IMG/VR virus record: IMGVR_UViG_3300034418_009484
Span: 1-64,000 of that record
DNA: 64,000 nucleotides
Strand: one strand, 5' to 3'
Origin: a virus
Shown: piece after piece, positions 10,767 to 42,141 of the stretch
How positions within the stretch are numbered: position 1 is the first letter of the stretch
Layout: each line of letters starts with the position of its first letter
The notes under the pieces: generated by a model
Database searches by the model: none
Told to the model about the DNA's origin: nothing
What the model saw: only the letters and a program-made list of their open reading frames with translations
Program-made: the position numbers and the translations under genes

Positions 10767-13700
10767 ATGGCTTTTAATATAAATGCACAGGTTGTTCTAA
10801 GCGGTCCTAAAAATATAAAGACCGTAAGAAGTAATATAAAAAAACAATTATCTGGAATAACAACAAATGTAAAAGTTGATTTAAGTAAAGCTGCAAATAC
10901 AAATTTATCTAACTTAAATAAACAGCTAAAAACAACAAATTCTATATTAAAGCAAGTTGCTTCAAGCGCAACGACTGCTAATAAGCAAATATCTAGTCTT
11001 TCCAAAGGTATAAATCAAGCTTCTACTAGTGCTGGTAATTTAGGTAGAAATGCCAATAACCTATCAAATTCTTTTAATAATGTTACTAAGTCTGTTGCTC
11101 AATCTAGGGGAGAAATAGAAAATTTTGGTAGGGATGCTGCACTAGCTATTCGTAGATTCTCTGCTTTTACTATTGCTACTGGCGCTGTATTTGGATTTAT
11201 CAGAGCAGTAAAAGAAGGTATTAAAGACTCAATTGAGTTTGAAAGACAATTATCTAGAATTGTTCAAGTTACTGGAGCAACAGATAAACAAATCAAAGGT
11301 TTAGAGTCAACTATTGATGGATTGGCAGCAACTTTAGGTTTAAATTCAAATGAATTAGCAAAAACTTCTGTTACGTTGGCGCAAACTGGTCAGACAATAG
11401 ATCAGGTAAGAAAGTCTTTAACTGCTATTAGTAAAGCTAGTTTAGCACCTACATTTGGTAATATTCAAGATACCACAGAGGGTGTTATCGCTGCTCTAAA
11501 TCAATTTCAGATTAGTGCAGATAGAACAGAAGCGGTTCTTGGTTCTTTGAATGCTGTTTCTAAAAGATTTGCTGTTGAATCTGAAGATTTGATTTCTGTT
11601 ATTCGTCGTGCTGGTGGTGTTTTTGCTACTGCTGCTGGAGATATTGCAGAACCAGAAAAGGCTCTTGCTGAACTTGTTGGTATTTTTACTGCTGTAAGAT
11701 CTACGACTAGAGAAAGTGCAGATACTATTGCAACTGGTCTTAGAACTATCTTTAGTAGAATTCAAAGAAAAGGAACTATTGAATTTTTAAAGAACTTCAA
11801 TATTGAACTTACAAATGCCCAAGGTCAATTTGTAGGTTTCTTTGAAGGTTTTAGAAGAATTGCTGAAGGACTAAATGATATACAAAGAAGGGGCGATACT
11901 ATTACTCTGGGTAGAGTAGTAGAAGAATTGGGTGGTATCCGTCAAATTGGAAAAATCTTACCTGCTATTCAACAATTTACTAAGGCCGAAGAAGCTAGAG
12001 CAGTTGCTTTAGCCGGTACTGAAAGTATTACAAAAGATGTTGCTATTGCTACGCAAACATTAGCAGTTCAAATACAGCAGTTGCAAGCAAGATTTCAAAC
12101 GTTAATTAAAGATATTTCTCAGTCTACAACTTTTCAAAGATTAGCTTCTTTTGCTCTTAGTACAGCGAATGCATTTATTACTTTGGCAGATGCTTTAAGA
12201 CCTGTTATTCCTTTATTAACTACTTTTGCTACAATTAAAATTGGTGGAGCAGCATTAGAATTTGCTCAAGGTTTCGTTGGAGGTATTAAAAAGGGTGGTG
12301 GAGCAGGAGGTGTAGGCAAGGGCTTATCTGGCGCTATTACAGGTCAGGGTGGAGGTGGAGGTCAGCTTAATCTGAAACCTTTGCAAACTGCCTTAACAGC
12401 AAATACAAATAGTGTTAATACTAATACTAGCTCTGTAAATCAAAATACAAACTCATCAACTACTTTAACTACTTCTGTAAGAACTTTAGATTCCAGTGTA
12501 AAAGCTTTAACAACAGCTATTAGTAGATCTAGCCTTACTGGTGGCGGCGGTACTTTAGGAAGAAGAAGAAGGGCTTTGGGTGGATCTATACCAAGATTCC
12601 AAAAGGGTGGTTTTGTAAATGGGCCTGGACACGCTCAGGGTGGTGTTATAGCGGAGCTTGAAGGTGGTGAATTTGTTGTTCCTAAAAAACAGGTTCAGAA
12701 ATTTGCAAGAGGTGGTAAAAAATCTAAGCTTAATAAAAAGAATGCTTATATATTTGATTTTGACGATACTCTTGCTACTACAGAAGCTAAAGGGTTTAAA
12801 GAATTTAGCGATCCTAAATTTGTTAAAAGTGCATCTGCAACAAGATATGCTTCTTTAGCAAAACGTAGGGCTTCACAAGGCGATGATATACATGTTTTAA
12901 CTGCTAGGTTTGGTGGAGGTGGAATTAGAGAAGCTATTGCTGATTTTATGGCAAAGAATGGAATAGCAACAAAAAGTGTTATTGCTGTTGGTGGTGCGTT
13001 TCCAAAAGATAGAGAACCTGGGAAAAGACCTGGGACAACAAGAAAATTAAGTACTGCTTCAAAGAAAGCCAAAGTATTATCTAAACTTTCTAATAATTAT
13101 AATAAAATAACATTTCTTGATGATAATGCTGAAAATCTTATACAGGCAGCTAAGGTTAAAGGAGTTTCTTCTGTAGAAGCGAAAGAGTCAAAACTGTTTA
13201 AAAATAGAAAGGCTCTTGGTGGAATTATACAAAAGCTTGCTGTTGGAGGAAAAGTCAAGGCAGGCGAACTTAGAATTGGTGATATTTTAGACACTGGAGA
13301 AATTGTAAAAGCCGCTTTAAAAACAGGTAATCGACAGAGAAGAAAAATAAATCTAACATTAGAGAAAGATGGTGTTAGGAAAACAGAACGGGTTGAGTTC
13401 TCTAAGCTGTTTGGTTTAAAGAGCAGAGGAAAAGGTATATCTCCAATAAAACTTAATAGCGGGGGAATTATACAAAAGTTTGAACTTGGAGGTCTTACAA
13501 GAAATGCAGTAAGAAACCCCGGAAGAAACCCATTAAGCGATATTTTTCAGGTTAATCAAGCGGCTGGTGCTAAATTACCTATACAAAATACTAAACAATT
13601 TGGTTCTTTCTTAAAGAAAAAGTTCGGCAATAAAGTTTCTGCGGCAGATTTCGGAGAATTTTCACCCACCGAACAAAAAGCTCTAGTTAAAGAATTTAGA

Positions 13701-16700
13701 GGTGGAGAGTCAGCACCTAAACAACCTAAACAACCAAAACAACCAAAACAAGATGGAGATCCAGATAATCTTACTTCGATAAGTGGAAAACTAGGAAGGG
13801 GTCGTGGTGCTAGAATTGTAGGAGCGCAGATTCAAGGTGTTCCTTTTGGTGTTACGTTCTTAAATAACCCACCATCCAAATTGCAACAAACAATTAATGG
13901 TGTTTTGAAGGATGGTAACCAAACAGGAAAGTCTACACTAAACAAGCTTATTATAAAAGAGCTTCAAAGATTTGGTGGTCCTGCCACTAGAGATAAAACT
14001 AAAAGATTTGGAATAAAATCTGGCGCACAACTTTCAGCGCCAAACGCACAGATTGGAACTTTTAAATCTAATGGTAAAAAGGCTTTTGAAGATGAGGTAG
14101 AAGGTGGTATTCCTCCAATTTTTGAAAATGCTACTAGAAATTTCTTTGAATCTGCTGGTATTTCTGGTCCTGCACCTAAATTCTCCCTTAATCAACTTGT
14201 TAGTAAATCTGCCGTTGGTTCTATTACTGGTCAATTCTTTGAGGCATTTACTAGGTCTGTAGGTAATCAGCCTATTTTGACTGGCGCTCAAGATGATGCG
14301 GATGACATTTTTGATTTCAGATCAAAACCTCAAAATGCAGACGCACTTTTTACTAAATTTGCATTGCCAAATGAATTTAAGAATACAGGTAGTAGCACAG
14401 AAAATATTAGAAATGCTATTTCCAAATCTTTCTCTTTGCCCGGAACTTTGGTTGATTTTCAAACAGAAGTATTTAAATTAAATCAACAAAGTGCTAATAG
14501 AGGCGGCGAGATAAATAATGCCAATGCAATATTAACTCCCGGTGAGGCTGTATTCGGTGCTAAGAAAGCTTCTCAAATAGGAATTTCTAATTTAAGTAGG
14601 TTAAATAAAACAGGAGATGCTTCTGGGTTAAATATTTCTAACTCTGATTTTTCTATTGTTCCCGGTAGTGGAAATAGTGATACTGTTCCTGCAAGTCTTG
14701 AGCCTGGGTCTTTTGTTATTAAAAAATCTTCTACACAAGAAGGTTTGCAGACTTTTAATTCTGGTGGCAAAGTTCAAAGATTCCAAGGGGGTGGAAGTAA
14801 AGGTGGAGGTCTTGGTGGTGGTATTACTCAGTTGGCTTTGTTTGCTAGTTTTGCGGATTTGGGCGAAAGCGCTAATCAATTAATAACATTATTCTTTGGT
14901 TTAGAAACTGTTTTAGGTTTATTTGGAAAAGATCTTAGTGATTTAGGTAAGAGTTTTAAAAAACAAAACAAAGCTTTAACAGATTTGTCTTCTCAACAAA
15001 GAAAAGAAGCAAAAAAAGTTAGAGGAAGACTTAAAGCTCCTATTAGGGGAGCAAAAGTTAGCGGATTAACAGCTTCAGCATCTAGGGCAGCAAGATTAAA
15101 AGCAGTAAGATCTGTTAGAGGTACTGGTGGATTTGGAACCGCAGGAAGGTTTGGAAGAACTGCTGCTAAAATTGGTGGCAAAGGTGGTCTTGTTGCTATT
15201 GTTGCATCGCTTTTGGTTGATCCAATAACACAGGCCATAAAAACTGGTTTTGGAGAAGTAGAACTTGAAACGGGACAAAGAGGTTTTAGAGGCCCAGGAG
15301 GTTTAGAGACTGCTCAAGCTATTGGTACTGGCAGCGGTGCTGTATCTGGCGCTTTAGCTGGTGCTGGTTTAGGTATTGCTGGAGGTCCAGTAGGAGCTTT
15401 AATAGGGGGTATTGCTGGTGCTGCTGTTGGTGGTATAAAAGGATTTTTTGATGCAGCATCGGCTCAATTAGAATTTCAGGCTTTTGACCAATTTAATAAT
15501 GCTTTGGGTAAATCTACTGAATTAATAGATGAATTTAATAAAAATGCTAGTGTAGAAAATTTAGGTAAATTAAATCAAGCTACTGCTGAAGTGTTTTCAA
15601 GTTTTGAAAGATTAGCTAAAAATACAATTGAAGCAAGAGAAACATCATTTAGTAGTCAATTACTTGGTGGATTAGATACAAATATTTTTGATAGTTTCAG
15701 TACTGCTTCTGGTCTTTATGAAAAAAGTGTTTTTCTTTTTGATAAAGCTGCTCAGTTTTTTGGTCGTGGTACTAGCGATCTTGTTAAAAGTATTGAAAAA
15801 TCAGCAACAGCACAAAAAAGAGGTGGTTTGTTTGGTGATATTCTTGCTGGTATTGCACCTCGAATTGATAAAATAGCCAGTGCTAATATTAAAGGTATTG
15901 AAGCAACATTTAATGCTATACCTTTAGATCAATTAAAAGCCTTAGATTTTAACGATATTGATTCTTTAGATGCAGTAAAAGATCAACTAAAAGATCTTGG
16001 CGTTGAGGCGAAAGATGCTGAAATTGTTCTTGGAAATTTAGAAGCAGCTTTAACACTTCAAGGTATTAATGATATATCTTCTGAATTACCAGAGGCTGCT
16101 AGAAAAGCATTCTTAGGAGCGGCAAGTGAAGCTTTAGCAGCAGGAACTAGTATCGCTGATGCAGTAGAACTAGCATTTTCACCTGACCAATTAGTTAGAC
16201 TTGGAATAACCGCTGAGAATGCTAAACAAATAGTTGAACAATTAAATAATACAATTGGTGAAGAAGCAGTTGCTGAATTAATAGCTTATCAAAAAGAACA
16301 GGTTGAGCTTAGTAGAATTTTATCAGAAACTTCTAGGGAAATAGATGCTTTTGGTGCTGCGTTAAATTTATTGTCTGGTGGTATTGCTGGTATTGGTTCT
16401 GATTTTTCTACACTTCTTGGAAATATACAATCAGATCTTGATGCCAGTCTTAGTAATGATTTCACGGTAAGGAGACAACAAGCTCCTAATGTGTTTGAAA
16501 ATGTCACAGGAAGACTGCCTGATGAAATCAATAACGCCGTAAATAATTTAGGAAAGATTCTAAATACAGATGTATTAGATGGTGCTGGTAAAATTGTAAA
16601 CTTGCAAAATGAGTTACCTAGAGCATTAAAAGATACTGTTACTGCTTTAGCATCGCAAACTTCTGGAGGTATTAGTGGTGCTGGTCAATTTACAGACGAA

Positions 16701-19700
16701 CAAATATTAGATGAATTTAAAAATGCGATAACAGAATTTGATAAACTGCCATCATTTGTTCAGCAAAACCTTGAAGCTACTTTACGAGGCATCGTAGGTG
16801 GGAGTAGACAGGGAGAAGGAGGAAAAGGAGCAGTATCCTTACAGAAATTATTAGAAGAAGGTAATTTTGACCAACTAAATCAGATATCAGTAGAATTTGC
16901 TGAAAATCTTTCTGAAATACAAAGTGCTGTAAATGATTTTCAAAATGCTATTGCGCAAGGCGCTAATAATATTAAGAAAATTAATAATTTAAGATTAAGA
17001 ACTGACTTAGAAATTAACGCTAAGAGACAGTCTTTTGAAGATAGATTTGGTCAATTCTTGAATCAAACTGTTGACGAAAGAGCCAAGGCTGAGAAAAGAT
17101 TAAGAGATACTATTGATACACAATTGCGTGCTGGCACTGGTGGTCCTGGCATTGGTGCTGGAGGTATTGATGCTGATGCTTTAGCTAGAAGAAGGGAAAA
17201 ATTACTACAAACAAGAGATAATTTACAAAAGCAACTGGAAAATCCTGAACTTGGTCAAGCTGAATTTGATTCTTTAACTAAGGCTCTTGGTGATAACGCT
17301 TCTAAATTAGATGGTACAACAGCAGCATTAAAAACATTATCAGAAGATGTAACACAGCTTGAAGCTGTAGAAGGAGAATTAGCAAAGATACAAGAATCTA
17401 GATTAACAGGAAGGGAAAGAGCAAGACTATTTGCTTCTAGAGCGCAAGATGCATCAACTCCAGCAGAATTTGCCAAATTATTTCAAGATTTTCTTGCGCC
17501 AACAATTGCCATTGCTAAAGCACAACAGGGTGGTCCTATTGGTTTTGGAGAAGCTGCTGCTATATTAGGAGATCCGCAACAGATTAAAGATGTTTTTGGT
17601 TTTGATGATGCTCAAATAGAGTCTATATTAGCCGGAACAACACAGGGAATTGGTGATACTTTTGCTAATCTTTTAGCTTCATTTGGTGTCGGTAGAAATG
17701 CTGCTCCTATTGCTAGAGGTTTGTTTGGGGCTGGTGCTACAGAAGCGGGGTCTACTGCTAAAGAACAAGAACTTCTTGCCGAAGCTGCTAGGTTACAGCT
17801 TGAAAGAGAACAGGCACTTCTTGCATTAAGAGATCAAAATATAACTTCTGCCGAAACACTTCAGCAACAGTTTTCTGATCTTATTGGAACAACTTCTCAG
17901 TCTCTTACCAATCTTATTGCTAAGGCTCAAGAATTAAGAAGTTCATCTGTTATACCTCCTTCTGCTGGTTCAGAACAGCAAGCAGAACAAGATATAGCTC
18001 AAGTTTTTAGAAATGCAGTTAAACCTTTAGATAGTACTGGCGCTGAATTAAGTAATGCTGCTAGTAGTTTACAAAGAGCAGCACAGGCTATACAAGAGGC
18101 TGTTAAAGCGCCAGAAGTAAAACCTGTTAAAAAAATCAGTGAAACTGCTATAAATCAAAACATTCCTCCTTCGTTTCCGGTGTTACGACGTCAAAACGGA
18201 GGTTCTATATTTAAACCAAGAGGAACAGACACAGTTCCTGCCATGTTGACTCCTGGCGAATATGTAGTAAATGCAAAAGCTGTAAAAAAAGGATCGAATC
18301 TTCAGTTATTAAAAGATATAAATGATGGTAAGGTTACTATTCCAAAATTTGCTAAAGGTGGAATGGTTGGTTATTTTGATAGAGGGGCTTTAGTACCATC
18401 GGAAGATGAATTTATATTACAGGAATTAGTAAAGCGAGAAGACAAAAGTATTTTAGATGCGACTAAAACTATTCCTAATCTAAGAACTCCTTCGCGAGAA
18501 TCAGTTGAAAAGTCGGCTGCTGATAAATTATCAGAATTAAAAAGACAAGGGTTTAATCAAGATGCTAGCAAGCTTGCTGGTGTGTCAAGCAGTATTCAGA
18601 AAACTTCTGGGTCTTTCGGTTCAGGAACAGATGATAAACTTCTTGATTTTTTCACATTGTTAAATCAAATTTCTGCTCAAGAAATTGAACGTAAAGATAA
18701 AATAAGGAATTCAGCCGCAGGGGAACGCGCAACTGATCTTTTAAGCTTACCTTTAGAGCTACCCTTTCTTCCAGAAAAGATTTTTGAAACAACGACAGGA
18801 ACAGATCTACGTAAATTTTCACAAACTCTAGATCCATTCGCAGTGGATGAAGATCGAAATCAAAAAGGTATAAGAAGTCTAGCAAATAAATCTTCAGATC
18901 AGATTATAGGTGGGTTTGCAAATCTCGTTCAAGGAGGAATTAATAGCGTAATTGGTCGTGATCCAACCGATTTACTAGATCAGATTGATTTTGCTGCGGT
19001 GGGTCGTGGTGACGGTTCAGCAAGTTTTGACGATATACAATTAGCAGAAATACTTGAATTGCAAAAAAAGGCTGCTGAAGGTATTTTAAAAAGCAGGACC
19101 AGTTTGCAAAGCAATGAAAATTTAAGCAGTCTTAGTAATCTAAGACTTTTTGGGAACGACGAGGATTTTAGAGCGGCGGGTGGCACTTTTAAAGATAGTG
19201 GAGAAAGAAATATTTTACCCGAAGAAGAAGCTTTGTCTAATTTTTTAGCTATAAGAAGAAAGGCAGATCAAGATACACTTGCAGAATTTCGTAAAAAAAA
19301 TCCCACCAATATTGATCCTAATCTTATTATACCAGCAGGACAAACGCCAGAAGATTTTATACAAACTGATAGAGGCGATACAAGTGTAGCAGGTTTGCTA
19401 AAGAGGGCGCCAAATATTATTAGCAATGAAGGCATTAGAGATTCAATTTCAGGCTCAACACAACAGGAAAGGTTGGAGGCAGCGAAAAAAAGAAATGAGG
19501 CTTTCTTTGCTGATAAGAAAAAATTGGATACTACTAAAACAAAAAATACAAGCAAGTTTGGTGAGATGGGACAAAGCTTTGGAGAGGCTGCTCCTTTTCT
19601 AGAAAATGTTCAATCTGGTAGAATTTCTGGACTAGCCCCTTTAATACCATCACTGCCTCGTTCACAATTTAGCAATGATGAGAAGTATCAAGATTATAGG

Positions 19701-21044
19701 CAAAAATTAAGAGAAGAAAAGTTTGGTAATGAGTCTGGAAGGCTTGAAGCCCAGTTTAAGGCACAAGAGCAAACTAAACCACAAATAAAACAAATTCAAA
19801 AAGAAATAGCAAAAACAATACCAGGGTCTACGAGAAGGAAAGAACTTGAAAAACAATTATCAGAACTTGAGAATCCTAAAATTTCTTCTAAGAAACAGGC
19901 TTCACCAAGATCAAAACAAGGTAGCATTACCAAGGGTAAACCTGAGAGATCAAAGGTTAGTACTATCAATGGTAAAGCTATAACGGACAAAAGTGGAAAG
20001 GTCATAAAACCAATCAAAGATTCGCCTTTTATTAACAAGCCGACCACCTTAACTTCAGATGAGTTAGCTGCTAAAAGAGAGGCGTTTTTAAGCACAAAGC
20101 CACAAAGTAAAGCTGAGTCACCGCCTGAAAGAGAAAAGAAAGAGCAAGAAGCTAGAATAAAGAGACAACAACAACCACAAAGTCAAGCACCCTCAAGTGG
20201 CTCTAAAGTTGACCAGCCCACACAGTTAACTGCTCCACCGCAACGCAAGATAACGCGAGAACGAATTGAGCAAACGAAAGGCTTTGACTTCAAAGCTGCT
20301 ACACGAAGGGCCATAGATGCTGATGAAAGAGCCAAGGCTGAGAAAAGACTAAGAGATACTAATGCTCCTGAAGGATCAAATCGACTTTTAGACACTAAAT
20401 ACAGTGCTCCTGGTCTTGAGAATGTAGACCCAGTGACACTTGCTGGCGGGCAAGCACAATTCGCTGACCAACAAGCTCGATCAACAGCGGTACGACAAAG
20501 GCAACGTAATGCTCCTGCAAGTATACCAACAGATTTACCTGCAACTTTAGGATTACCTCCACAACAAGAACCAGCAACAAATCTACAACAACAAGAAAAT
20601 TTAAGAAGCAGACAAGCAAGAATACGAAGAACACAGGGTGAAGGAGCAGCATCTAGATTTGGACAAACTTTTGGATTAAGAAATAGTGGTCCTGGGCAAA
20701 GAGCAGGATTGCCTGGAGGTCAAGGCCAAGGTCAAGCTGGCGCTCAAGATTTTACTGCTTTTTCAGATTCAGTAGCAAAGCTACAGGAAACCACTAAATC
20801 ATTAACAGCATTTGCAACTCAATTAAATACTGCTGCTGATAAATTAGCACAATTACAAACTATTGAAGTTAGTTTAAATGCCAGAGTTGAACCAATTCAG
20901 GTTATATTAAATGGGGCAAGTATTATTAATGAATTTGGTGATACTGCTAAGAAAGAGATATATAATCAGCTTGTAACTAAATTAGAAGACGAATTTGTTA
21001 AGAAAACTCCTGATGGCAGTATAAATGAACCGACACTTGGATGA
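10767..21044 (+). CDS. Giant tail tape measure protein
   Basis: 3425 residues. It sets tail length and occupies the tail tube; at the usual ~0.15 nm per residue it predicts a tail near half a micrometre. Residues ~150-420 match the TP901-type tape-measure core (FERQLSRIVQVTGAT, LASTFGN-like LAPTFGNIQDTTEG, GVFATAAGD, TIATGLRTIFSRIQRKGTIEF). Glycine-rich motifs follow in at least three places: GPGHAQGGVIAELEGGEFVV near 620, ILTPGEAVFGAKKA and DTVPASLEPGSFVIKK near 1255-1320, and GTDTVPAMLTPGEYVVNAKA near 2490. A hydrophobic Gly/Ala segment lies near 1525-1565. A HAD-like domain is inserted at ~655-810 (separate entry). The C-terminal third is Gln/Lys/Arg rich. Confidence 0.93.
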   Translation: MAFNINAQVVLSGPKNIKTVRSNIKKQLSGITTNVKVDLSKAANTNLSNLNKQLKTTNSILKQVASSATTANKQISSLSKGINQASTSAGNLGRNANNLSNSFNNVTKSVAQSRGEIENFGRDAALAIRRFSAFTIATGAVFGFIRAVKEGIKDSIEFERQLSRIVQVTGATDKQIKGLESTIDGLAATLGLNSNELAKTSVTLAQTGQTIDQVRKSLTAISKASLAPTFGNIQDTTEGVIAALNQFQISADRTEAVLGSLNAVSKRFAVESEDLISVIRRAGGVFATAAGDIAEPEKALAELVGIFTAVRSTTRESADTIATGLRTIFSRIQRKGTIEFLKNFNIELTNAQGQFVGFFEGFRRIAEGLNDIQRRGDTITLGRVVEELGGIRQIGKILPAIQQFTKAEEARAVALAGTESITKDVAIATQTLAVQIQQLQARFQTLIKDISQSTTFQRLASFALSTANAFITLADALRPVIPLLTTFATIKIGGAALEFAQGFVGGIKKGGGAGGVGKGLSGAITGQGGGGGQLNLKPLQTALTANTNSVNTNTSSVNQNTNSSTTLTTSVRTLDSSVKALTTAISRSSLTGGGGTLGRRRRALGGSIPRFQKGGFVNGPGHAQGGVIAELEGGEFVVPKKQVQKFARGGKKSKLNKKNAYIFDFDDTLATTEAKGFKEFSDPKFVKSASATRYASLAKRRASQGDDIHVLTARFGGGGIREAIADFMAKNGIATKSVIAVGGAFPKDREPGKRPGTTRKLSTASKKAKVLSKLSNNYNKITFLDDNAENLIQAAKVKGVSSVEAKESKLFKNRKALGGIIQKLAVGGKVKAGELRIGDILDTGEIVKAALKTGNRQRRKINLTLEKDGVRKTERVEFSKLFGLKSRGKGISPIKLNSGGIIQKFELGGLTRNAVRNPGRNPLSDIFQVNQAAGAKLPIQNTKQFGSFLKKKFGNKVSAADFGEFSPTEQKALVKEFRGGESAPKQPKQPKQPKQDGDPDNLTSISGKLGRGRGARIVGAQIQGVPFGVTFLNNPPSKLQQTINGVLKDGNQTGKSTLNKLIIKELQRFGGPATRDKTKRFGIKSGAQLSAPNAQIGTFKSNGKKAFEDEVEGGIPPIFENATRNFFESAGISGPAPKFSLNQLVSKSAVGSITGQFFEAFTRSVGNQPILTGAQDDADDIFDFRSKPQNADALFTKFALPNEFKNTGSSTENIRNAISKSFSLPGTLVDFQTEVFKLNQQSANRGGEINNANAILTPGEAVFGAKKASQIGISNLSRLNKTGDASGLNISNSDFSIVPGSGNSDTVPASLEPGSFVIKKSSTQEGLQTFNSGGKVQRFQGGGSKGGGLGGGITQLALFASFADLGESANQLITLFFGLETVLGLFGKDLSDLGKSFKKQNKALTDLSSQQRKEAKKVRGRLKAPIRGAKVSGLTASASRAARLKAVRSVRGTGGFGTAGRFGRTAAKIGGKGGLVAIVASLLVDPITQAIKTGFGEVELETGQRGFRGPGGLETAQAIGTGSGAVSGALAGAGLGIAGGPVGALIGGIAGAAVGGIKGFFDAASAQLEFQAFDQFNNALGKSTELIDEFNKNASVENLGKLNQATAEVFSSFERLAKNTIEARETSFSSQLLGGLDTNIFDSFSTASGLYEKSVFLFDKAAQFFGRGTSDLVKSIEKSATAQKRGGLFGDILAGIAPRIDKIASANIKGIEATFNAIPLDQLKALDFNDIDSLDAVKDQLKDLGVEAKDAEIVLGNLEAALTLQGINDISSELPEAARKAFLGAASEALAAGTSIADAVELAFSPDQLVRLGITAENAKQIVEQLNNTIGEEAVAELIAYQKEQVELSRILSETSREIDAFGAALNLLSGGIAGIGSDFSTLLGNIQSDLDASLSNDFTVRRQQAPNVFENVTGRLPDEINNAVNNLGKILNTDVLDGAGKIVNLQNELPRALKDTVTALASQTSGGISGAGQFTDEQILDEFKNAITEFDKLPSFVQQNLEATLRGIVGGSRQGEGGKGAVSLQKLLEEGNFDQLNQISVEFAENLSEIQSAVNDFQNAIAQGANNIKKINNLRLRTDLEINAKRQSFEDRFGQFLNQTVDERAKAEKRLRDTIDTQLRAGTGGPGIGAGGIDADALARRREKLLQTRDNLQKQLENPELGQAEFDSLTKALGDNASKLDGTTAALKTLSEDVTQLEAVEGELAKIQESRLTGRERARLFASRAQDASTPAEFAKLFQDFLAPTIAIAKAQQGGPIGFGEAAAILGDPQQIKDVFGFDDAQIESILAGTTQGIGDTFANLLASFGVGRNAAPIARGLFGAGATEAGSTAKEQELLAEAARLQLEREQALLALRDQNITSAETLQQQFSDLIGTTSQSLTNLIAKAQELRSSSVIPPSAGSEQQAEQDIAQVFRNAVKPLDSTGAELSNAASSLQRAAQAIQEAVKAPEVKPVKKISETAINQNIPPSFPVLRRQNGGSIFKPRGTDTVPAMLTPGEYVVNAKAVKKGSNLQLLKDINDGKVTIPKFAKGGMVGYFDRGALVPSEDEFILQELVKREDKSILDATKTIPNLRTPSRESVEKSAADKLSELKRQGFNQDASKLAGVSSSIQKTSGSFGSGTDDKLLDFFTLLNQISAQEIERKDKIRNSAAGERATDLLSLPLELPFLPEKIFETTTGTDLRKFSQTLDPFAVDEDRNQKGIRSLANKSSDQIIGGFANLVQGGINSVIGRDPTDLLDQIDFAAVGRGDGSASFDDIQLAEILELQKKAAEGILKSRTSLQSNENLSSLSNLRLFGNDEDFRAAGGTFKDSGERNILPEEEALSNFLAIRRKADQDTLAEFRKKNPTNIDPNLIIPAGQTPEDFIQTDRGDTSVAGLLKRAPNIISNEGIRDSISGSTQQERLEAAKKRNEAFFADKKKLDTTKTKNTSKFGEMGQSFGEAAPFLENVQSGRISGLAPLIPSLPRSQFSNDEKYQDYRQKLREEKFGNESGRLEAQFKAQEQTKPQIKQIQKEIAKTIPGSTRRKELEKQLSELENPKISSKKQASPRSKQGSITKGKPERSKVSTINGKAITDKSGKVIKPIKDSPFINKPTTLTSDELAAKREAFLSTKPQSKAESPPEREKKEQEARIKRQQQPQSQAPSSGSKVDQPTQLTAPPQRKITRERIEQTKGFDFKAATRRAIDADERAKAEKRLRDTNAPEGSNRLLDTKYSAPGLENVDPVTLAGGQAQFADQQARSTAVRQRQRNAPASIPTDLPATLGLPPQQEPATNLQQQENLRSRQARIRRTQGEGAASRFGQTFGLRNSGPGQRAGLPGGQGQGQAGAQDFTAFSDSVAKLQETTKSLTAFATQLNTAADKLAQLQTIEVSLNARVEPIQVILNGASIINEFGDTAKKEIYNQLVTKLEDEFVKKTPDGSINEPTLG
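12726..13200 (+). other. HAD phosphatase-like domain inside the tape measure
   Basis: Residues ~655-810 of the tape measure carry the HAD-superfamily motifs in order: DFDDT at 664-668 (motif I, nucleophile D664 and acid D666), VLTAR at 710-714 (motif II), a Lys cluster KKAK at 766-769 (motif III) and FLDDNAEN at 783-790 (motif IV acids D785/D786). The spacing is close to that of small HAD phosphatases such as the phosphatase half of polynucleotide kinase-phosphatase. No change in reading frame or stop separates it from the tape measure. Confidence 0.75.
17076..20361 (+). repeat. 37-base direct repeat within the tape measure gene
   Basis: Bases 17076-17112 and 20325-20361 match at 36 of 37 positions and encode the same peptide DERAKAEKRLRDT in the same frame. 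The surrounding sequence is unrelated. The near-identity at DNA level 3.2 kb apart suggests a recent copy or template switch within the gene. Confidence 0.85.
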
Positions 21045-37926: not shown

Positions 37927-39549
37927 TTATATGCATTGATTCAATTTTTGTACACTTTTTAATAAAAAACTTCCTTTCTTTTTGTCTCTATTTCCTCTAA
38001 ACAATAATATTTTTCCAATAGAAACCTTATCTTTTATTACTTTCCAATCTTCTGAAAAAACTGTGACACTATCTAAACAGCATGTATTATCACTGATTTT
38101 TAGAAAAGCCATTACAGTGCCTTTATTTGGACCTCCTTTTATTTTCCATTCTCTAATATCTGTTACTTGTGCAGCAATAGCTATTGTTTTACATTCAAAT
38201 CCTTTAATATATTCTCTGCAAGTACAATTAGCATCAATGATATCATATTCATCAATTTCTGAGCAAGTAAGCTCGATACCAAGAAGATCTCTTTCTTGTT
38301 TTGCTCTCCAAGACCATTTATCAATAAGTTCATATGGTGGAGACTCAAGACTTATAATAGAGCTTTTAATAAAATCTATATTTTTATCTGTCCATGCAGT
38401 TCTTCTTCTAATCTTAATATCATCAATAAGTCTTTCTAGTCCCTCTTTAAAAGTCTTAGACTTATCTTCTGATAAAAACTTCTTGTCTCTATCTTTAATT
38501 TCTTTATAAATATTAAAGTCATAAAGCATCTTTGATCTATGTAGTCCATAACAATCAAAAACACCAGCTTTAATCATAGACTCAAATGAATTTGATTTAA
38601 TAAATCTTCCAAGCCTCATTAAAAATTCTTCCCATTCCATTTCAGCTACATTAATATTATTAGTGGTAATGTAGCCGTGGAGTTGGTCGTAAACGCTTTG
38701 CCCAACATTTTTTACATTAACGATTCCAAATGTTGGTTTATTATCAATCAATTTAAATTTAGCACTTAAATTCTTGATAGAAGGAGGAATAATATCAATA
38801 TCCATTATTCTAGCATTATTAACTAATTCGCTTATTTCATCAAACGGTTTTGGTTTACCGTCAGCATGTCTTAAATAAGAAGTAAAAAATGCTCTGGGAA
38901 AATGTGCTTTTGCATAAGCTGTTTGATATCCATTGTAAGCATAGCTAATACTATGACTTTTGTTGAATGAATATTTTTGCGATTTTTCAATCCAGCTAAA
39001 AATTTCCTCTGCTTCTTCCTCTGTAAACTTTCCTACCTCTTTTGCTCCTGTAAAAAACTCTTTCTTAACTTGAGCCATGAGGTCAACCTTTTTCTTACCA
39101 ATAGCCTTTCTAAGATTGTCTGCTTGTTGCAAAGAGAATCCTGCAACTAGTTGTGCAATCTGCATAGCCTGTTCCTGATAAACCAGAATGCCATATGTGC
39201 TTTTAAGAACAGGTTCTAGGTCGTTATGGAAATATTCAACAGGGTCTTTTTTAGATTTTCTATCAATATAATGCTGAGTTAATGATTTACCATCAACAAT
39301 AGCATCGCCGCACCCCGGCCTAATGATAGCAATAAGATCTGAAAGTTCTTCAATACTTCTTGGTTTTACTTCTTTAGCTTTGCTTTGTCCAAGTTGAGAC
39401 TCAAGCTGAAAAACACCTTTTGTATTTCCTTCACATATCATATCCCATGTTCTATCACAGTCTAATGGCATATCTTCAATGTTAGGATTAAATACAGGCA
39501 ATCCCTTATCATTTTTTTCAAATTTACATCCACATGGGAATTCAATCAT
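37927..39549 (-). CDS. dnaE: DNA polymerase III alpha, fingers and C-terminal half
   Basis: 540 residues, the C-terminal part of a split DnaE. It begins with FPCGCKFE and enters the fingers at MPLDCDRTWDMICEGNTKGV, then GVFQLES (45-51), IIRPGC, YGILVYQEQAMQIAQ (119-133), LRKAIGKK (146-153) and SFNKSHSISYAY (194-205). It ends in an OB-fold-like region (IAAQVTDIREW...GTVMAFLKISD). It lacks the PHP domain and all three palm aspartates, which are on the gene at 40264-42141. Its ATG overlaps the exonuclease stop (ATGA). It should assemble with the N-terminal half. Confidence 0.9.
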   Translation of the reverse strand: MIEFPCGCKFEKNDKGLPVFNPNIEDMPLDCDRTWDMICEGNTKGVFQLESQLGQSKAKEVKPRSIEELSDLIAIIRPGCGDAIVDGKSLTQHYIDRKSKKDPVEYFHNDLEPVLKSTYGILVYQEQAMQIAQLVAGFSLQQADNLRKAIGKKKVDLMAQVKKEFFTGAKEVGKFTEEEAEEIFSWIEKSQKYSFNKSHSISYAYNGYQTAYAKAHFPRAFFTSYLRHADGKPKPFDEISELVNNARIMDIDIIPPSIKNLSAKFKLIDNKPTFGIVNVKNVGQSVYDQLHGYITTNNINVAEMEWEEFLMRLGRFIKSNSFESMIKAGVFDCYGLHRSKMLYDFNIYKEIKDRDKKFLSEDKSKTFKEGLERLIDDIKIRRRTAWTDKNIDFIKSSIISLESPPYELIDKWSWRAKQERDLLGIELTCSEIDEYDIIDANCTCREYIKGFECKTIAIAAQVTDIREWKIKGGPNKGTVMAFLKISDNTCCLDSVTVFSEDWKVIKDKVSIGKILLFRGNRDKKKGSFLLKSVQKLNQCI

Positions 39550-40235
39550 AATTCTATTCCAGAAAAACTATTTTTAAATTTGTCAACAGAAGATTGTTTT
39601 CTATGAAATTTCATAAACCTAGTAATTATAGCAGCTTCTTCAAGAACGTCAACTAAGGCATCATGAGCCACTCCTGTAGCTTTCATGCCAAAAAACTTTC
39701 TCCAAGTATCCATCTTATAATCGAACGGTTCTTCAAGGTTTTCAAACCACCAGAACAAATTATCCATAGCATCTAGCTTAGTGACTTCTGAAAATGGCAT
39801 TTTAATTTTATGTTTTTCACAAAGTCTTTTAGCTATGGGAATATCAAACCCTGTAATATTATACCCTGCGGGAATTGGTTGAGGGAACCATTGCCCAGGT
39901 TTTTTATCAACTGTATATTTTGAACACCATGTAGAAAAGTTTTTCCATGCGACTTTTTCTGTAACTCCTGTTTTCCATTTGTCTAATATTTCTTCAAAAG
40001 ACACGCCATAGTTATCTGCGTGCCATTGAATTGTTTTTTCTCGCTCATCTGTTAAATATTCTTTTTTATTGATACCATCTGGTTTGATAACAATATTAAA
40101 TGATTGATCTTTTTTTACTTCTAAAGTTTCTGGATCAATAGGTACAGCGGCTAGTTGGACAGGATTACACGTTTCTCGGTCTGGAGAGTCCGTTTCAAAA
40201 TCAAAACAAATAATCCATCTAGTATTTTTAGGCAT
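39546..40235 (-). CDS. DnaQ-like 3'-5' exonuclease (proofreading)
   Basis: 229 residues. Exonuclease motifs are CFDFETDS (residues 10-17, motif I with D and E), GYNITGFDIP (motif II with D) and GVAHDALVDVLEEA (motif III, H-D-A-L-x-D, the DEDDh form). It lies between the two polymerase genes and overlaps the start of the second by four bases, so it is produced with the polymerase. Proofreading of phage DNA synthesis is the obvious role; its Pol III contact region is not identifiable. Confidence 0.88.
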   Translation of the reverse strand: MPKNTRWIICFDFETDSPDRETCNPVQLAAVPIDPETLEVKKDQSFNIVIKPDGINKKEYLTDEREKTIQWHADNYGVSFEEILDKWKTGVTEKVAWKNFSTWCSKYTVDKKPGQWFPQPIPAGYNITGFDIPIAKRLCEKHKIKMPFSEVTKLDAMDNLFWWFENLEEPFDYKMDTWRKFFGMKATGVAHDALVDVLEEAAIITRFMKFHRKQSSVDKFKNSFSGIEL

Positions 40236-40263
40236 ATTTATTCTCCCTTTTATTTATATTCAT

Positions 40264-42141
40264 TTATTCTCCACTAACTATGTTTACAACATCCATAACT
40301 TTATCTAACCCTCTAATTGCTAAACAGTCTAATTTTAAAAGTCCAACTTCCTCACAGCTTGGACCTTCAAAACCAGCCAACATTCCTTTTCCTTTATTAT
40401 CTAAAACCATTGGGCAAGACTTGCTAATTGGATCATTAGAAACAACAATTCCAGCAGCGTGTTTTCCTGCAATAATTTTAGTATGCTCTATACGAATAGC
40501 TTGCTCAAATATCTTTGCGAATCTCCCCTCTAGTTTATTATCCTTCCCTAAGTAGCACCAGTTCTTTAATTTATCTGGAGTATTTTCTAATGCCCAAATA
40601 ATACTTGATGAATATCCATATTCTTCTTCGATATCTTGCAGTTCGTCTGAAACACTTGCTGGCTCAGGCAGACACTTTGTAATTGCCTTTTGTTCTTCAA
40701 AACTAATATTTCCTCTCGCCGCCATAGTTCTAGTTAATGCTGCCTTACCTTTTAATTTTTGGAATGTAATAATTTGGGCAACATTTTCTTCGCCATATTT
40801 ATTTTTAATATATTCAATTGTTTCTTCTCTAGCGGCTTTAGGAATATCGAAGTCGATATCAGGCCAGGATATTTTACCAGGGGCATTTCTACCCGCATTA
40901 TAAAATCTTTCAAAGATTAGATTATATGGTATAGGATCTACCTGTGTGATACTCAAAAGATTAGAAACCATACATCCAGCAGCACTTCCTCTACCGGGAC
41001 CAGTTATATAACCCTTGCTTCTTACGAATTGAAGAATATCGTCTACAATTAAAAAATAGCTTGATAAACCGATAGATGTAAATATATCTAATTCGTTATT
41101 AACTCTTGCTCCATATTCAGAAAATTCCTTAGATTTATTATCTATGTTTATCATCTTTTTTTTCCAACCATCTCTGCATAATTTTCTTAAATATTCTTCT
41201 GGATTCATATTGCCAGGACATTTAAATTCTGGAGGTTGTGGAGATTTTGTAATATCATAATCTTCACACATATCCAAAATAAGATTTGTATTTTGAAGTT
41301 CTTCGTCGGTATGAAATACTTTCATATCATCATAAGATGGTATATGATAATTATTAGACAAAAATGAAGTCTTCAAAACATTGCTTGCTGCACCACTTTT
41401 TAATTCTCTTTGCACTTGGCTTATAGTCTTTTTTAGAGCAGTGCATAAGAGAACTCTTTGGTCCTCTGCGTCTTCTCTCCTGCAATAATGAGCATCAGGA
41501 GTTGCAACACAAGGTATATTAGTGATTTTAGAAATTTCCCTAAGAGCATTGGCTACTGTACCAGCAAATTTATTAATCTTTGAGTCGATCAATTGAATTT
41601 CAATAAAGAAATTTCCTTTACCAAACATCAACTCTAAATCTTTAGCTTTTGCAACACCCTTTTTCATCCAGTCAGGATCTAGTCTTTCGCCTTCTGTTAT
41701 TGCATTGGCTAATGTAGAGCCTAAGTGACCGCTAAATGAAACTAAGTTCTTTTGTGAAGCAACGCAAGCCAAGATATCAGTATCAATCCTTGGCTTATGA
41801 TAAAAGTGTTCTTTTTTATTAGAGATAGAAACCAAGGATAATAGGTCGTTCCACCCCTTTGCATTTTTAGCTATAATAACTTGATGATTTAATTTTCTGT
41901 TATCTTTAACTTTTTCAGTAACAAGACCATTGCAAATGTACATTTCACAACCCAACAATGGTTGAAAGCCTGATGATCTTAATTCATTTGAAAAATCAAC
42001 AGCGCCGCTTACATTTCCATGATCCGTTAATGCACAAGAAGTAGAACCTATTTCTTCTATTCTATCTGATATTTCATTGCACTTGCTAAGTCCATCAAGT
42101 AGTGAGTACTCACTATGTACATGCAATGGGGTGTATTTCAT
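40264..42141 (-). CDS. dnaE: DNA polymerase III alpha, PHP and palm half
   Basis: 625 residues, the N-terminal part of a split DnaE. The PHP domain shows HVHSEYS (7-13) and TDHGN (39-43). The polymerase core shows GPGRGSAAG (381-389), WPDIDFD (426-432, the paired catalytic aspartates), and LLKLDCLAIRGL with D605, the third catalytic aspartate. It stops 20 residues later. All palm catalytic residues are therefore present, and the fingers, beta-clamp and OB regions are missing. The C-terminal half is two genes downstream at 37927-39549. The 5' end overlaps the previous gene by 29 bases. Confidence 0.92.
   Translation of the reverse strand: MKYTPLHVHSEYSLLDGLSKCNEISDRIEEIGSTSCALTDHGNVSGAVDFSNELRSSGFQPLLGCEMYICNGLVTEKVKDNRKLNHQVIIAKNAKGWNDLLSLVSISNKKEHFYHKPRIDTDILACVASQKNLVSFSGHLGSTLANAITEGERLDPDWMKKGVAKAKDLELMFGKGNFFIEIQLIDSKINKFAGTVANALREISKITNIPCVATPDAHYCRREDAEDQRVLLCTALKKTISQVQRELKSGAASNVLKTSFLSNNYHIPSYDDMKVFHTDEELQNTNLILDMCEDYDITKSPQPPEFKCPGNMNPEEYLRKLCRDGWKKKMINIDNKSKEFSEYGARVNNELDIFTSIGLSSYFLIVDDILQFVRSKGYITGPGRGSAAGCMVSNLLSITQVDPIPYNLIFERFYNAGRNAPGKISWPDIDFDIPKAAREETIEYIKNKYGEENVAQIITFQKLKGKAALTRTMAARGNISFEEQKAITKCLPEPASVSDELQDIEEEYGYSSSIIWALENTPDKLKNWCYLGKDNKLEGRFAKIFEQAIRIEHTKIIAGKHAAGIVVSNDPISKSCPMVLDNKGKGMLAGFEGPSCEEVGLLKLDCLAIRGLDKVMDVVNIVSGE

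Follow-up and report, generated by a model that had tools for sequence, protein, structure and literature searches.

A HAD phosphatase-like domain embedded in the tape measure protein of an uncultured phage

INTRODUCTION

What might a domain with the motifs of a HAD phosphatase be doing inside a phage tape measure protein? The question is raised by IMG/VR record IMGVR_UViG_3300034418_009484, the first 64,000 nucleotides of which form the window analysed here, and in which a sequence-only reading had pointed to the motifs DFDDT, VLTAR, a lysine and FLDDN at 12726-13200 and had proposed that a phosphatase so placed could act at the time of DNA entry. Tape measure enzymes are known for cell wall cutting. 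Indeed, both T5 pb2, a metallopeptidase, and YomI of the SPbeta group, an annotated transglycosylase, resemble the present case in having an enzyme domain within a tape measure, but the substrate of these enzymes, known or annotated, is peptidoglycan. HAD 3'-phosphatases of phages are also known already, whilst the combination of the two appears to be new: the reading knew of no tape measure described as having a HAD phosphatase domain, and our literature search likewise found no report of a HAD domain, phosphatase or polynucleotide kinase in one, which is weak evidence as subscription papers and preprints lay mostly outside its coverage. An end-processing enzyme in this position, if truly there, would mean that repair or counter-defence chemistry is brought in before phage gene expression, and the injection stage is important because host defences such as SNIPE act then (PMC13190303). 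The explanation that we tentatively favour, whilst giving it rather less than an even chance, is that a Pnkp-like HAD 3'-phosphatase has been gained between glycine-rich linkers and is delivered with the tape measure.

THE TAPE MEASURE PROTEIN AND ITS EMBEDDED DOMAIN

The ORF concerned (10767..21044, on the plus strand, as are all features of this gene given below) encodes a protein of 3425 residues that is recognized as a tape measure by its profile matches, its very great length and the long homologous ORFs found in other phages. It matches PhageMin_Tail in Pfam (PF10145, E=7e-20) and several PHROG tape measure families, the best of which is phrog_28 (E=5.5e-24). Complete homologues are 1956-3631 residues in length, and records in INPHARED have only the N-terminal tape measure region in common with it, at 20-29% identity.

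The HAD motifs were found to lie in frame in this protein, in which 12726-13200 corresponds to residues 654-812, and all four are intact and in order. Motif I is DFDDT (residues 664-668; 12756..12770), comprising the predicted nucleophile D664, the acid/base D666 and T668; motif II, within VLTAR (residues 710-714), contains T712 and R714 (LTAR; 12897..12908); motif III is K767 (13065..13067), and motif IV is the pair D785/D786 (13119..13124) in FLDDN (residues 783-787). The domain as a whole extends over residues 657-807 (12735..13187). When residues ~657-807 were isolated they matched PHROG_415 (polynucleotide kinase; E=1.4e-6), and they were also matched, at E=2.8e-18, by an independent profile built only from five phage HAD proteins (L015-L019), with the tape measure domain itself excluded. 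Together with the AlphaFold2 model and its Foldseek matches described below, these results bear out the claim that a HAD phosphatase domain is embedded in a tape measure; from sequence and model, this region is assigned as such a domain, with an intact active site. Single-sequence searches with the domain gave nothing significant in Pfam, PDB, INPHARED, IMG/VR or GTDB contigs, and it is therefore considered divergent. Elsewhere in the 92-kb record of the phage there is no free HAD gene, and the selected genes that were scanned showed neither a kinase nor a ligase as its partner.

Relatives of the domain were sought in IMG/VR by motif guidance, using motifs I and IV, and five phage proteins of its family were found, at 25-29% identity. 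Three (L016, L017 and L018) are small standalone HAD proteins, whilst L015 is a large protein with an N-terminal HAD domain and a weak nucleotidyltransferase match. The threonine of motif II and the lysine of motif III, neither of which was used in the search, are invariant in 6/6 HAD proteins; the invariance of motifs I and IV is biased, because both were used to find the relatives. Members of this alignment match Hydrolase, HAD_2 and HAD_PNKP in Pfam. A further standalone HAD gene (L032:1483-1989), with 27% identity to the embedded domain, sits in the phage record of the tape measure relative L022. These standalone proteins of the PHROG_415 type (L016, L017, L018 and L032) share sequence family and motifs with the embedded domain, but are separate genes of ~170-285 residues with roughly 30 more residues after motif I.

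The remaining relative, L019 (4055-12754), is a phage protein of 2900 residues with its HAD domain at around residue 1980 and a HEVLH peptidase-like motif; it has no PHROG match and resembles a polyvalent protein. Proteins of that kind, known from phages and plasmids, combine unlike domains in one large chain, for which injection has been proposed (Iyer et al. 2017, PMC5512222); the main text of that paper mentions neither tape measures nor phosphatases. The embedded domain's own HAD family is thus carried by a giant phage protein.

THE INSERTION SITE AND HOMOLOGOUS TAPE MEASURES

The HAD cassette sits between 'GG' linkers of the tape measure. Linker 1 (residues 605-650, GGSIPRF..GGFVNGPGHAQGGVIAELEGGEFVVPKKQVQKFARGG; 12579..12716) shows 57-91% identity to L002, L005, L010, L022, L025 and L030, and the insertion point comes after it. 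Downstream of the HAD domain are linker 2 (GGIIQKLAVGG; 13218..13250) and linker 3 (GGIIQKFELGG; 13461..13493), which are 84% identical to each other at the DNA level, and between them is a small segment adjoining the HAD domain (KVKAGELRIGDILDTGEIVK..., residues 829-895; 13251..13451) that has no Pfam match and only a weak match in L034 (E=5e-4), partly to linker sequence. A module at 13473..13700 is common to L025 and L030 (blastp E=2e-5 and 9e-6), and in both of these it comes soon after linker 1, with no HAD domain between.

Three scans of viral contigs yielded 22 homologous tape measures, some of them near-identical pairs; L034, an additional, distant homologue on a gammaproteobacterial MAG contig, was outside the 22-member profile scan. 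The HAD domain was found in 0/22 by motif and by profile, and 17 of these (L002, L005-L008, L010, L011, L020 and L022-L030) read past the insertion site, the other five ending before it. The five-protein HAD profile matched no other tape measure in the collected set, L034 has no HAD motif by eye and no HAD match by Pfam, and among 80 loci found via linker 1, many of which may be other protein families, no ORF has a significant HAD match. In L002 the N-terminal region is 89% identical, yet the HAD domain is absent: after the conserved linker GEFVVPKKQVQKF, the protein runs directly into sequence that is found here only beyond ~370 extra residues. A Pfam scan of the relatives for further enzyme cassettes gave nothing convincing. 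Because homologues exist without it, the HAD domain is, on these comparisons, an accessory, optional inserted cassette rather than a conserved feature of tape measures. Conservation of the motif residues in homologous tape measures, on which the sequence-only reading had staked its claim, was therefore not borne out, the domain being wholly absent from them, whereas the predicted structure does have a HAD fold.

A cassette of this kind could be a captured passenger, folded and perhaps active, that has no role at entry and whose only effect is extra length or bulk in a part of the tape measure that is variable and tolerates insertion. We consider this somewhat unlikely. The domain does occur only once in the set, and its insertion site is in a variable linker region in which the relatives differ in content and length; the catalytic residues are all intact, however, though the remainder has diverged to ~30% identity, which argues against long neutral drift, and a close relative would be expected had the capture been recent, yet none was found in viral or genome collections. 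The embedded form is known from one phage, so that selection on it is not measurable, which counts against the explanation that we favour.

PREDICTED FOLD AND LIKENESS TO T4 PNKP

The structure of the domain was predicted with AlphaFold2 from a six-sequence alignment, as the sequence-only reading had advised, and the resulting model (pLDDT 75, pTM 0.72) has the Rossmannoid α/β core of a HAD fold. Its overall confidence is moderate, with the region after motif I modelled at pLDDT 50-70. The best Foldseek matches in the PDB are HAD phosphatases: AphA is first by E-value (E=1.1e-5, TM by target 0.40), and the T4 Pnkp 3'-phosphatase (5uj0; E=3.5e-5, TM by target 0.63) and bacterial Pnkp1 (4xru; E=3.1e-4) are also matched. 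The earlier guess that the domain is Pnkp-like thus fared well in that the nearest solved structures include Pnkp 3'-phosphatases, but less well in that AphA precedes them by E-value. Among the predicted viral structures of BFVD, the matches comprise polynucleotide kinases of phages together with HAD proteins, some of which bear the name XkdF, and no tape measure is named among the matches listed.

In an alignment with T4 Pnkp (PseT), residues D664, D666, T712, R714, K767, D785 and D786 of the embedded domain fall opposite D165, D167, S211, R213, K258, D277 and D278, which we take to be the catalytic residues of the T4 enzyme. D664, proposed from the outset as the residue to remove in an assay, is accordingly in the correct position for the nucleophile, both within motif I and in this alignment. 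The PseT sequence used was taken from NC_000866. From the first aspartate to motif II there are 48 residues in the embedded domain and 46 in T4 Pnkp, whereas the other phage HAD relatives have roughly 30 extra residues between motifs I and II. R749 (13011..13013), in REPG..GTTRK, is placed by MAFFT against R246 in the REQGDTRK of T4 Pnkp; this correspondence is weaker than those of the motifs and is suggestive only. The two phosphatases are therefore alike in their HAD fold, in DxDxT, in the S/T-x-R of motif II, in the lysine and in DD, all in aligned register, and unlike in that the T4 enzyme is free-standing and has a kinase at its N terminus, whilst the phage domain is embedded in a structural protein with no kinase found adjoining.

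With all catalytic residues retained, the embedded domain probably works as an Mg-dependent enzyme that takes 3'-phosphates off nucleic acid ends. The catalytic register, the short spacing of motifs I and II and the Foldseek matches to Pnkp speak for a 3'-phosphatase; counted against it are AphA, an acid phosphatase of the periplasm with an equally good E-value, the moderate confidence of the model and the lack of a kinase or ligase partner among the genes scanned. The substrate might instead be a small molecule, a nucleotide or an envelope phosphate, possibly in the periplasm, as for class B acid phosphatases. The rank of AphA would fit such a substrate, as would the weak Pfam matches to Acid_phosphat_B in the embedded domain (E=0.1) and also in its HAD relatives, and the tape measure of T5 is known to traverse the envelope (PMC10038345). 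We nevertheless judge it rather unlikely, since TM by target for AphA is below that for the T4 phosphatase and T4 Pnkp shares the short loop after motif I.

A POSSIBLE ROLE AT DNA ENTRY

On the reading that we favour, the tail tube would contain the putative Pnkp-like 3'-phosphatase as part of the tape measure, in about three copies per tail if the phage is like T5, and the enzyme would leave the tail ahead of the DNA or along with it. Phage DNA that had been nicked or cut by nucleases could then be freed of its 3'-phosphates before phage gene expression; an alternative substrate at the same stage would be RNA cut by host ribotoxins. The clearing of 3'-phosphates from DNA or RNA ends is inferred from the resemblance to Pnkp. 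The T5 tape measure has a muralytic domain, is seen at the tail tip as a trimer and is ejected once the receptor is bound (PMC10038345), and for lambda, labelling has placed the tape measure at the inner membrane while injection is under way (PMC13190303); if this phage behaves like T5 or lambda, its phosphatase would be on hand as the DNA enters. As precedents for embedding we count the HAD family inside L019 and the XkdF-named structural matches in BFVD. The idea is cheap to test, because a domain of ~160 residues lends itself to assay in isolation.

It is also conceivable that the tape measure is made as a precursor and loses its linker-bounded region by cleavage, either before tail assembly or in the course of it, in which case the phosphatase would work in the producing cell and would not be delivered. 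The tape measures of T5 and lambda are indeed cleaved in morphogenesis (PMC10038345) and the region here is flanked by repeated linkers, but the T5 cut is near the C terminus, whereas the linkers here are in the N-terminal third, and we regard this as distinctly improbable. That the contig is an assembly chimera, with a HAD gene of unrelated origin fused into the tape measure, is scarcely credible, for although the arrangement comes from one uncultured-virus contig only and the nearest relative, L002, is without HAD, the insertion is in frame on both sides, contains tape measure linkers, is followed by the module common to L025 and L030, and has the same GC and GC3 as the remainder of the gene.

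OTHER MODULES AND NEIGHBOURING GENES

Further downstream, residues 1041-1259 (13887..14543) form a tape measure domain that leave-one-out profiles detect in nearly all relatives (E=6e-9 to 5e-35); L034 gives two matches, both of them partial. It contains, in order, a glutamate (E1159), FD (here FDF) and (D/E)xK (K1205); the glutamate is present in 14/14 sequences, and FD and the lysine are nearly invariant, L023 having DAR. The domain has no Pfam, PHROG or PDB match and its AlphaFold2 model has a pLDDT of 49 and no strands; judged by its motifs, it is possibly a PD-(D/E)XK-like nuclease. The HAD and E..FD..K domains thus occur within one tape measure, which may be compared with the polyvalent proteins.

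In L034, a segment with the Walker-A motif GPSGSGKT (L034:13124-13636) lies between similar GG linkers and matches AAA_24 in Pfam at only E=0.03, and a J-domain-like segment with HPD (L034:19298-19681) is located near the C terminus (Pfam DnaJ, E=0.03).

More broadly, the tape measure family might be a modular delivery vehicle, in which a linker-bounded region in the N-terminal third accommodates exchangeable nucleic-acid enzymes that come in with the tail and process DNA or RNA ends at entry; we think this unlikely. Its modules would be the HAD 3'-phosphatase described here, the Walker-A segment of L034 and the nuclease-like E..FD..(D/E)xK domain of nearly all members.

Elsewhere in the window, the DNA polymerase is encoded on the minus strand as two ORFs (37927-42141), which cover positions 42-613 and 623-1077 of phrog_405, and an exonuclease-like ORF (phrog_255, E=5.6e-8) lies between them.
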